A stretch of 64,000 bases of DNA from Anaerolineae bacterium (GTDB lineage Bacteria > Chloroflexota > Anaerolineae > B4-G1 > DUEL01): positions 1 through 64,000 of the forward strand of contig JANXCY010000010.1 in NCBI GenBank assembly GCA_025060135.1, read 5' to 3'. Shown piece after piece: positions 2,573 to 5,837 of this stretch; within the stretch, counting starts at the first letter, position 1; each line of letters starts with the position of its first letter. The position numbers were made by a program, and so were the translations under genes. Under the pieces are notes generated by a model. It did not search any database. It was not told where the DNA came from and saw nothing but the letters and a program-made list of their open reading frames with translations.

Positions 2573-2663
2573 TGTATAGCCATTGCTCGGAGCCCCCTGG
2601 GTGCCGCACACAGCCTCCTTCGGGTGCCGGGCAAACCGTTCAAGAGCAGAAAGCGCGAAACCC

Positions 2664-3173
2664 ATGGACGAGGCATCTGCGTCCGTATTGGCGCATGGCT
2701 TGCCCGATGAACTGGCTGGCAGTGCCTTAAACCGAGGAGCAAATACGGATAGGGCCAAAGACTTTTTCCCGGGAACCCTCCCCTCCCCATCTGGGAGGAG
2801 CGGAGCCTGGAGGGGCATTCTCCTGGGGCTGATCGGCCTGGTGGCGGGAGTTGCCTTAGGACTTCTGGTTGGCTGGGTGCTCTGGCCCGTCCAGTATACT
2901 AACACTGCCCCCGCCCAGTTGCGGCAGGACTATCGGACGGATTACATTCTGATGGTCGCCGCCGCATATCACGTGGAAGGAAATGCGGAGGCCGCGCTGG
3001 GCCGGCTGGCTTGGCTGGACCCGGAGACGCCGACTCGTCCGCTGGTGGAATTGACCGAGACACTGATTGCGGAGAACGGTCGCCCCGGCGACATCGCTAT
3101 GCTGGTGCGACTGGCAGAAGCCCTGGGCGCGACAACGTCTGCTATGGAGCCCTACCTGGGGGGAATACCGTGA
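2664..3173 (+). CDS. conserved membrane-anchored protein, paralogue A
   Basis: About 169 aa, function unknown. A hydrophobic helix (roughly residues 52-73, LLGLIGLVAGVALGLLVGWV) is followed by PVQYTNTAPAQLRQDYRTDY and a short helical region. The same layout recurs in the next gene (PVQLYNTTPPLLRSDYRHEW), so the two are tandem paralogues. The stop codon overlaps the GTG of the next gene (GTGA), indicating translational coupling. The start is uncertain: ATG 2664 has no clear ribosome-binding site, and the residues before the helix look weakly constrained, so the true start may be later. From memory, this helix-plus-DYR domain recurs in Chloroflexota as an unnamed family. Confidence 0.6.
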   Translation: MDEASASVLAHGLPDELAGSALNRGANTDRAKDFFPGTLPSPSGRSGAWRGILLGLIGLVAGVALGLLVGWVLWPVQYTNTAPAQLRQDYRTDYILMVAAAYHVEGNAEAALGRLAWLDPETPTRPLVELTETLIAENGRPGDIAMLVRLAEALGATTSAMEPYLGGIP

Positions 3174-4042
3174 GCCGCCTGGGCTATTTCCTCCCGCTGG
3201 TGCTCGGACTGGCTCTCGGCCTGGCGCTGGGGTTGGTCTATGCCTGGCTGATAGACCCGGTCCAACTCTATAACACCACCCCGCCTCTGCTCCGCAGCGA
3301 CTACCGGCATGAGTGGATCCGGCTGGCCGCGCTGGGATATGTCGCCGATGGAGATATGGACCGGGCACTCATCCGGTTGCGGGGCCTTTCCAAAAAGGAT
3401 ATCCAGGACGCACTGGCTGCAATGATCGAAGCGTACGCCGCGCATGGCCAGCCCGCGCCGACCATGCGCCGTCTGAGCCTGCTGGCCCGGCGGCTGGGCG
3501 TGGACACGCCAGCGATGGGGATATATCTGGAGACCCCGGCCCCGCCCGTTGGGGCCGTTCTCCCCACCCCGATGCCGACTTCTCCGGTACCGCCAGCCCT
3601 GCCGACTCCGCTGACACCAACGCCAGCTGTCCCCCCTTTTTTCTCCCCCGTGGCCACTCCGGCTCCTTCCCCCTACCGGGTGATCGCACAACACCTGGTC
3701 TGCGAGGGGGCACCTGGGCAATTGCGCGTGTGGGTGCAGGCAGCACCGCCGCTGGAGCCGACAGCGACCCCGGCTCCCCGCCGTCCCACACCTACTCCGA
3801 TGGGGCCTCAACCGCTACCCGGGGTGGTGCTCTGGCTCCTCTGGGCCGATGGGGCCGACCGGGCGGTCACCGGCCTGCGTCCCTGGGTGAGCCCTGGTTA
3901 TGCCGACTTTACCCTCCAGCCCGGTGTCTTCTACGCGCTGAGCGTGGAGGAACCCAACGCCCCTGTCCTTTCCGGGCTGACCCTTCAGCCATGCCCGGAT
4001 GGGGAGCGGATGGGCTCGTGGGAAATCGTGCTGGAGAAGTAA
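3170..4042 (+). CDS. conserved membrane-anchored protein, paralogue B with Pro/Thr-rich linker and C-terminal domain
   Basis: 290 aa, function unknown. The N-terminal helix (residues about 5-26) and the PVQLYNTTPP...DYRHEW segment repeat those of paralogue A; a helical segment follows. A Pro/Thr-rich linker with TPTP runs (about residues 125-170, and again near 195-210) leads to a C-terminal domain that looks all-beta and contains two widely spaced cysteines. The topology suggests a single-pass protein with the C-terminal part outside. GTG 3170 overlaps the preceding stop and places the helix right at the N-terminus. Confidence 0.65.
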   Translation: MSRLGYFLPLVLGLALGLALGLVYAWLIDPVQLYNTTPPLLRSDYRHEWIRLAALGYVADGDMDRALIRLRGLSKKDIQDALAAMIEAYAAHGQPAPTMRRLSLLARRLGVDTPAMGIYLETPAPPVGAVLPTPMPTSPVPPALPTPLTPTPAVPPFFSPVATPAPSPYRVIAQHLVCEGAPGQLRVWVQAAPPLEPTATPAPRRPTPTPMGPQPLPGVVLWLLWADGADRAVTGLRPWVSPGYADFTLQPGVFYALSVEEPNAPVLSGLTLQPCPDGERMGSWEIVLEK

Positions 4043-4181: not shown

Positions 4182-4877
4182 TCAGTGGGTGATCTTCCAG
4201 GAACTGACTGCGTCGTTCAGCGCGTGGAAGGTCGGGCAGTTCGGCCCCCAGGTGTAAAACGGCCCGTCATAGTCGGAGAAGTCGTAGACCGTGACGAGGT
4301 TGCAGGTGGAGAATCCCTGACCCGAAGCGAACCGGTTATCCACGCCGTCTACCCGAAGGTCGGGCCGGCCGTAACTGTACCCTGCGGAGCAGGGATACGC
4401 ACCGTAGTATTCTATCAGCGGCGACCCGTAGTTCGGATTATCGTAGAACCTGGCAATCAGGTACAGGGACGAAAGGGGAACACCGTCCACCGATTCAATC
4501 CGCCCCTTTCCGCAGACGGGCTCAGAGGCCCCTCCCCCTTCCTCCAGAGGCTTCAGCACCACTACGCAGCGGGATTTGGGCGAGTCGCTGGGGCCCTGCA
4601 CAATGGGGCTGGTCTCCGTGGGCCGATACGCGGGTTGCTCCAGTTCCTCCGGCCGCAGCGGTTCCAATACCACAACCGTGTTCTCGGGCGCCGTCTCTTC
4701 GCACCGCCGAGCGATCATTGGGGACGCCTGTTCGCCCGGCAGGACGGGGTCCAGCAAAACGACCAGGTGGGTTCCGGGGGGACACGGCCCCTTTACTTCC
4801 TGAGCCCTGACAATGGTGAAACCGGCCAGCAATATGCCCGCCAGGATCAGGATGCCGATAACAAGCCATTTCTTCAT
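4182..4877 (-). CDS. secreted protein with C-terminal beta/gamma-crystallin-like (peptidase inhibitor I36-like) domain
   Basis: 231 aa. The signal peptide is MKKWLVIGILILAGILLAG, with likely cleavage after the Ala in VRAQ. A low-complexity middle is followed by about 95 residues resembling a beta/gamma-crystallin or SMPI/I36 fold: FYDNPNYGS, a C-rich turn, NRFASGQG, YDFSDYDGP and a final ALNDAVSSWKI. Such domains bind Ca2+ or inhibit metalloproteases; neither is shown here. The start follows AGGAGGT with 5 nt spacing; longer upstream readings are not needed. Its promoter matches that of the next secreted gene (5142-5759), so the two are probably co-regulated. Specific role unknown. Confidence 0.7.
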   Translation of the reverse strand: MKKWLVIGILILAGILLAGFTIVRAQEVKGPCPPGTHLVVLLDPVLPGEQASPMIARRCEETAPENTVVVLEPLRPEELEQPAYRPTETSPIVQGPSDSPKSRCVVVLKPLEEGGGASEPVCGKGRIESVDGVPLSSLYLIARFYDNPNYGSPLIEYYGAYPCSAGYSYGRPDLRVDGVDNRFASGQGFSTCNLVTVYDFSDYDGPFYTWGPNCPTFHALNDAVSSWKITH

Positions 4878-4924
4878 TTTGCACCTCCTGGGATGGATTT
4901 CTGTACGGCCTCTCAACCGATTTA

Positions 4925-4957
4925 AGAATAGCACAGCCAGTGTTAAGCCTCGGTTAA
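4925..4957 (-). promoter_or_regulatory. TTAAC direct-repeat promoter, copy 1
   Basis: Read on the minus strand: TTAAC-N6-TTAAC (plus-strand GTTAA at 4953-4957 and 4942-4946, an 11-bp phase), then N11 and the -10 TATTCT (4930-4925). There is no good -35 box. An 11-bp-phased direct repeat is typical of OmpR/PhoB-type response regulators. Copy 2 has identical spacing. Confidence 0.7.
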
Positions 4958-5062
4958 GTTGAGCGTCCTGGGGCGGCGCTTTTGGACATCGCTCTCAAAA
5001 GGTCGCGTCGCGCAGGCGGTTCGCCGGTTCCTGCAGGCCAGGCGGCCTGCACTACAGCCTAC

Positions 5063-5101
5063 AAAAACCGAGGGTCTGGAAACCGGTTTCCAGACCCTCG
5101 G
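5063..5101 (-). terminator. intrinsic terminator of the second secreted-protein gene
   Basis: A perfect 34-bp palindrome (5068-5101, two 17-nt arms with no extra loop base) is followed on the minus strand by TTTTT (5067-5063). It separates the two co-regulated secreted genes. Confidence 0.8.
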
Positions 5102-5141
5102 GGCTGAGAAGTCCGCTTCGCCTTCGCAAACAGCGTTCTCC

Positions 5142-5759
5142 TTACCAAGGGACGAAGCCGCTGTAGGTGGCCGTAGCAGGCCCCAAGTTCCATACCATCG
5201 GGTAATACCAGCCTGCCTGGTTCACCCGCAACTGGCAGGTTCCCGCTCCCCCGGAAATCTGACAGCCGTAGAAGACCCCGGATTGCTGGCTGGTGAGCCC
5301 GATGCGGAAGGTGGAAGTCGTGGGAGTCCAGGTGATAGAGATCGTGACCCCATTTCCCGCGTTATACCAGTACGGCCCGTAGAGGTGAGCGGCACTGGGA
5401 TTCAGCGTGCCGCTGATCGGTACAGAGCCCAGGGGGGCCTCCACCTTCCGGTATTCCCGCTGCACCTTTGCGGCCTCCAGGTTTTCCTTGACCGCGCGGA
5501 TTTCTCCTGCGGCTCGTCCTTCCAGGGTTACATCGCCCAGGTCAGTGGAGGGGAGTTCTGCTCCCGGCCCGGATGTGGTTGTGACCGGGCTGTTTGGGGC
5601 GGTCGCATCTCCGACCTGCAACTCATCTCCGGAGACGGTCCGGGCAGGCTTCAACGGGGGCGCTTCCCCGTTCCCGGCCCCCTGAGCCCACGCCATTCCT
5701 CCCAGCGCCAGACTCCCTGCTACAAGGAGGACAACGATAACCGTCAGAACCTTTTTCAT
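5142..5759 (-). CDS. secreted protein with C-terminal beta-sandwich-like domain
   Basis: 205 aa, function unknown. The signal peptide (MKKVLTVIVVLLVAGSLALG, cut near AWAQG) is followed by a disordered acidic/Pro-rich stretch. A C-terminal domain of about 90 residues starts near PISGTLNPSAAHLYGPYW and contains alternating hydrophobic strands, two cysteines (YGCQISGGAGTCQ) and a WYYPMVWNLG strand, reminiscent of pre-peptidase C-terminal or carbohydrate-binding beta-sandwiches. ATG 5759 is preceded by AGGAGGTG. It is transcribed from its own TTAAC-repeat promoter and ends at a strong terminator. Confidence 0.7.
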   Translation of the reverse strand: MKKVLTVIVVLLVAGSLALGGMAWAQGAGNGEAPPLKPARTVSGDELQVGDATAPNSPVTTTSGPGAELPSTDLGDVTLEGRAAGEIRAVKENLEAAKVQREYRKVEAPLGSVPISGTLNPSAAHLYGPYWYNAGNGVTISITWTPTTSTFRIGLTSQQSGVFYGCQISGGAGTCQLRVNQAGWYYPMVWNLGPATATYSGFVPW

Positions 5760-5804
5760 CTCACACCTCCTGAAATCTGTTGAAGGGACTCCTCAACCCA
5801 TTTC

Positions 5805-5837
5805 AGGATAGCCGAATGGCCGTTAAGCGGTTGTTAA
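5805..5837 (-). promoter_or_regulatory. TTAAC direct-repeat promoter, copy 2
   Basis: Minus strand: TTAAC-N6-TTAAC (plus-strand GTTAA at 5833-5837 and 5822-5826), N11, then TATCCT (5810-5805). Spacing is identical to copy 1. A further shared block, AAATnGGTTGAG, lies just downstream in both. I see nothing else between about 5840 and 6004. Confidence 0.7.

Follow-up and report, generated by a model that had tools for sequence, protein, structure and literature searches.

Two described systems come closest to the promoters analysed here. PmrA binds CTTAAG/T half-sites that are arranged head to tail, five base pairs apart (PMC3973317), and the cyanobacterial SphR box has the consensus CTTAACCT with 3-bp linkers (PMC1906773). 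In the literature searched, no response-regulator box was described for the bacterial group studied here. Promoters A and B of the window (the whole stretch of DNA analysed, 64,000 nucleotides from genome G000) share features with both systems. Like the Pho box of SphR (cyanobacteria) and PhoB (E. coli), they have 8-bp direct repeats with a 3-bp linker and an 11-bp period just upstream of the -10 element; CTTAAC is common to their box and the SphR consensus (PMC1906773), and the same repeat precedes pstS in this genus. Unlike the Pho box, they have two half-sites, not three or more, and are separated from the -10 element by N11; the regulator to which they are linked in relatives is also another one. 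With the PmrA (BasR) box of enterobacteria they share the CTTAA core, the five-bp separation and the head-to-tail order (PMC3973317), but their half-sites end in C throughout, not in G/T, and do not fit CTTAAG/T-N5-XTTAAT.

The initial annotation read both minus-strand promoters as TTAAC-N6-TTAAC-N11-TAT(T/C)CT, and this reading proved exact. A pattern search of the window with TTAAC-N6-TTAAC-N11-TATnCT gave matches without mismatch at 4957..4925 and 5837..5805 (both minus strand) and no further match at up to two mismatches; 100 dinucleotide shuffles of the window contained none at the same tolerance. In the whole assembly of G000 (2.29 Mb, 94.9% complete), also scanned by pattern search, promoters A and B were the only matches at up to one mismatch and the reversed control pattern gave none, with 0.005 exact copies expected from composition as compared with the two observed. 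The module is real and not a product of chance, and the element common to the two promoters is larger than first stated, as it includes the extended -10. A consensus scan for sigma-70 promoters found none with a proper -35 at either site. A strong terminator (5101-5068, minus strand) lies between gene B and promoter A, so each promoter has its own transcription unit (Table 1).

Table 1. Positions of features at promoters A and B in the window, and boxes at regulator promoters of relatives.
Feature	Position	Strand	Sequence	Remark or basis
Gene A	4182..4877	-		231-aa secreted protein, no Pfam family
Conserved block at predicted transcript start of A	4907..4918	-	GGTTGAGAGGCC	possible 4-bp hairpin
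Copy of shared block, promoter A	4912-4923	-	AAATCGGTTGAG	sequence
Extended -10, promoter A	4925..4933	-	TGC TATTCT	sequence and 13 aligned promoters
Downstream half-site, promoter A	4942..4946	-	TTAAC	exact match; 11-bp phase
Upstream half-site, promoter A	4953..4957	-	TTAAC	exact match
Intrinsic terminator after gene B	5068..5101	-		15-bp stem, TTTTTG tail
Gene B	5142..5759	-		205-aa secreted protein, predicted C-terminal beta-sandwich, no Pfam family
Conserved block at predicted transcript start of B	5787..5798	-	GGTTGAGGAGTC	possible 4-bp hairpin
Copy of shared block, promoter B	5792-5803	-	AAATGGGTTGAG	sequence
-10, promoter B	5805..5810	-	TATCCT	GGC before; extended -10 G retained
Downstream half-site, promoter B	5822..5826	-	TTAAC	exact match; 11-bp phase
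Upstream half-site, promoter B	5833..5837	-	TTAAC	exact match
Regulator promoter box, G239			CTTAACAGAAATTTAAC-N11-TATGAT	
Regulator promoter box, G403			GTAACACGTAGTTAAC-N11-TATCCT	
Regulator promoter box, G004			CTTAACAGGAGTTTAAC-N10-TATACT	

Genes A and B each have a strong Shine-Dalgarno sequence and a signal-peptide-like N terminus and are otherwise unlike, as had been annotated; the N termini suggest a role in the envelope or outside the cell. Pfam assigned no family to A, B or their homologues. Protein A contains two CPPG..C-like (Cys-Pro-Pro-Gly...Cys) repeats. A likeness of its C-terminal domain to beta/gamma-crystallins was at chance level (E 0.3) and was discarded, as was its structure model, which was too weak for use (pLDDT 63; no match to a PDB fold had an E below 2.9). 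For protein B the model predicts a beta-sandwich that resembles pre-peptidase C-terminal/collagen-binding domains and periplasmic lysozyme-inhibitor domains, in both cases too weakly for a function to be named. Elsewhere in the window (2583-4042, plus strand), the membrane proteins of two reading frames that lie side by side resemble each other (PVQYTNTAPAQLRQDYR and PVQLYNTTPPLLRSDYR); the pair is probably a tandem duplication.

A search of 40 relatives at one mismatch recovered the box in G004, G017 and G020 and at two promoters of G001 that lie 440 bp apart. The full module precedes the A and B homologues of G001, the A homologue of G004 and the B homologue of G017. In G004 the box is also found before an unrelated secreted amidase gene (amidase by Pfam), and in G020 (L029) CTTAAC-N5-CTTAAC-N11-CAT precedes a different, large secreted protein, which may be one more target, in another family. 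Searching for gene A through the class yielded homologues in other families, among them those of G239, with the box CTTAACAAAGACTTGAC-N11-TATCCTGAAATCGGTGGAG, and G094, with CTTAACACGGATTTAAC-N11-CATAAT; within the class, the module occurs before A and B homologues of other genera and other families. An exact class-wide search (396 genomes) found ten forward sites as against one for the reversed control. In G045, the gene A homologue is cut off from its box by an insertion sequence that lies inside the start block; this element (L147, 8044-9533) carries a transposase, ISL3-like by eye, and an apparent target duplication, AACTGGTT(G).

Thirteen boxes were aligned, those of promoters A and B plus 11 promoters of relatives. 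They are direct repeats over the -35 region, with TTAAC twice in strict 11-bp phase, TATnCT in most and variable spacers; the upstream half-site is degenerate in one of the thirteen, the gene A promoter of G403. A G stands two bases before TAT in 13/13 and is preceded by T in 10/13. The fixed-phase box is kept across A, B, amidase and regulator promoters in G000, G001, G004, G017, G045, G094, G239 and G403, and its spacers are free to vary even where it overlaps the end of a kinase gene (G239, G017). We are confident of the box, the extended -10 and the regulator family (OmpR/PhoB); this is a real, conserved regulatory module of an already known kind. In the stretches read, the A homologues of G131, G384 and the Thermoflexus-type loci (L038-L040/G214) had neither a box nor a two-component neighbour, so the link between box and two-component system is not universal. 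Sigma-70-like (ECF-type) genes are found near the A homologue in G131 and near the B homologue in L039, as would suit a reading in which an ECF-type sigma factor recognises TTAAC as its -35. We regard that reading as extremely improbable: neither of these loci has the box, a TG-extended TATnCT behind two phased half-sites fits a regulator acting with the housekeeping sigma factor and not an ECF promoter, and the distance from half-site to -10 varies by 1 bp.

The comparison with relatives also revealed a neighbourhood that goes beyond the first reading. A or B lies directly behind a response regulator and a histidine kinase in G239, G403, G094, G017, G001 and G045, and probably also in G004, where the kinase end lies at one contig end and the regulator, in the matching order, at another, giving seven genomes with G004 as the probable case. 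The promoter of the regulator operon itself carries a box in three of the seven (G239, G403, G004; Table 1), and no obvious box was seen directly upstream of the regulator in G001, G017, G094 and G045. Linkage and a box at the regulator's own promoter, as expected for an OmpR/PhoB-family box, are thus found in relatives, not in G000. The annotated regulator class, deduced from the 11-bp repeats, is borne out by this linkage and by the boxes at the operon promoters. The local regulators of the seven genomes group together at 55-80% identity, and no regulator of G000 exceeds 45% identity to any of them. Among 15 relatives searched, an orthologue of at least 74% identity was present only in G001, G004 and G017, that is, in 3/4 of the genomes carrying A or B and in 0/11 of the others (Fisher p 0.009). 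The adjacent two-component system is therefore the probable ancestral regulator of A and B, as judged from gene order and co-occurrence.

The local regulators are closest to the RppA, CopR and PmrA models, with scores below the NCBIfam cut-offs of all three. The regulators of G017 and G239 reach 245.7 and 223.1 of 250 against RppA (245.7 being the best score of the local regulator), and 197.6 and 189.8 of 330 bits against PmrA, in each case below the cut-off; the best score of the local kinase is CopS-type (251.8 of 292.6), also below its cut-off. These affinities recall the RppA-RppB and CopR-CopS systems, from which the local system differs in having no adjacent copper or redox genes in the loci read and in its targets, secreted proteins without known family. 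Similarly, the regulators score among the PmrA-type models, but below the PmrA cut-off and with no lipid A modification genes seen beside them. In G124 (L143, 3696-6765) and G323 (L144), the same box is found upstream of a gene for a small secreted protein rich in Gly and Trp, behind which come a response regulator and a kinase of another type. This regulator shares 62% identity with C133 of G000, which suggests a second two-component system with the same half-site.

The block AAATnGGTTGAG, which the initial annotation noted downstream of both promoters, was recovered at an equal distance from each (Table 1). In the nine leaders that were aligned (A, B and seven in relatives), its GGYTGAG begins exactly 12 nt from the -10 start, at or near the predicted +1; it is absent from the pstS promoter and from the regulator promoters read. 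Pairing of the form GGYT-GAGN-RGYC is possible, and variation in the stem is nearly all pair-preserving: in the GGYTGAGNRGYC stem 97% of cells pair, far above slid controls. There was no double-sided change and no excess over column shuffles, and single-strand folds of the GGYTGAGNRGYC leaders were no better than shuffles, with ordinary folding energies. In view of the column shuffles and folding energies, an RNA hairpin was dropped as a firm claim; GGYTGAG is a second conserved element, located at the predicted start site, and perhaps forms a 5' stabilising hairpin. The A and B leaders also agree in the Shine-Dalgarno stretch and the start of the signal peptide (81% over 21 nt). This agreement, together with the extended type of the -10, could be explained if promoter, leader and signal-peptide start had been copied between A and B as a constitutive extended -10 promoter with no regulator. 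Such an origin is very unlikely, because between A and B the motifs were retained while the intervening spacers diverged, and because the motifs occur without the leader block at the regulator promoters, for which copying from A or B offers no obvious explanation.

Apart from those of A and B, G000 has a single exact TTAAC-N6-TTAAC, which stands before pstS (C111:32511-32526; L005, L078). It is part of an 11-bp ladder, TTAAC-N6-TTAAC-N6-TTGCT-N6-TTAAC-N10-TATGAT, with three TTAAC and one degenerate half-site, which recurs at pstS in G001, G002, G003 and G005 and also in G004, there with its first half-site degenerate, and is apparently the Pho box of this genus. Exact matches in G000 are thus limited to A, B and pstS, and other repeat pairs at up to one mismatch were not in matching promoters; the secretome regulon that had been proposed is not borne out as stated, none of any size being seen in this genome, and the genome-wide search suggested with it returned the repeat pair at pstS and no full pattern beyond A and B.

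The box at pstS raises the alternative that A and B belong to the Pho regulon, with the PhoB-like regulator C78 binding the TTAAC repeats at pstS and at A and B, and the secreted proteins being made under phosphate limitation. The C78 regulator-kinase pair is likely PhoB-PhoR because the C78 orthologue adjoins pstSCAB-phoU in G005, a case made by synteny only; the 11-bp period also matches that of the SphR boxes (CTTAACCT, 3-bp linkers; PMC1906773), and the dedicated regulator was not found in G000. Against this, the spacing to the -10 is unequal (N11 at A and B, N10 at pstS), the pstS promoter has no GGYTGAG block, and C78 scores below the curated cut-off of the PhoB model (229 of 296 bits). 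Moreover, A and B adjoin a dedicated regulator elsewhere, and relatives that have pstS and a C78-type regulator but not the local two-component system also lack A and B. We consider membership of the Pho regulon a serious alternative, though the less probable one. Of the PhoB-like biology initially envisaged, the exact repeat pair at pstS speaks in favour, while the comparative evidence points first to the dedicated local system, ahead of control by a nutrient. It seems that 11-bp-phased TTAAC is read by more than one OmpR/PhoB-type regulator in this group, and PhoB may act on A and B in G000.

Taken as a whole, the evidence is best explained, with moderate confidence, by promoters activated by an OmpR/PhoB-family regulator, ancestrally that of the adjacent two-component system. 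The box and its conservation, its gene order and co-occurrence with the two-component system, and its copies at the regulator's own promoter in three relatives were observed directly; the binding, the activation, the signal and the regulator acting in G000 are inferred. The following course is proposed. Promoters A and B would be activator-dependent and sigma-70-type without a -35 consensus, the box taking the place of the -35. A phosphorylated OmpR/PhoB-family regulator would bind as a head-to-tail dimer to CTTAAC-N5-YTTAAC over the -35 region and recruit RNA polymerase, which would then melt the extended -10 (TGnTATnCT). The ancestral regulator would have been RppA/CopR/PmrA-like, its gene and that of its histidine kinase standing directly before A and B, as in relatives, and would use the same box to activate its own operon as well.

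In G000, A and B would have moved away from the two-component operon. No two-component genes lie beside A and B in the window, no orthologue of the local regulator was found in the genome (best match 43%), and none of the eight Trans_reg_C matches in G000 is of the local-regulator type. The operon may be in the unassembled part (about 5%) or lost. The boxes of G000 are intact, so something presumably still reads them; if the operon was lost, another regulator with a similar half-site would have taken over, because both boxes remain intact, with the PhoB-like C78 as first candidate. Neither the C78 operon nor the C133 regulator of G000 showed a box of its own. A more specific course of events, which we hold to be unlikely, is that A and B left their own two-component system, since lost in the lineage, and were kept by C78 reading the same CTTAAC half-site, so that a local circuit passed into the phosphate response.

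These results define a regulatory motif that can be put to the test, in bacteria represented here largely by metagenome assemblies. Sequence, synteny and co-occurrence together link one family of secreted proteins with a particular two-component system. In G000 the A/B pair, orphaned as it is, would offer a natural test of regulon rewiring between regulators with near-identical half-sites.
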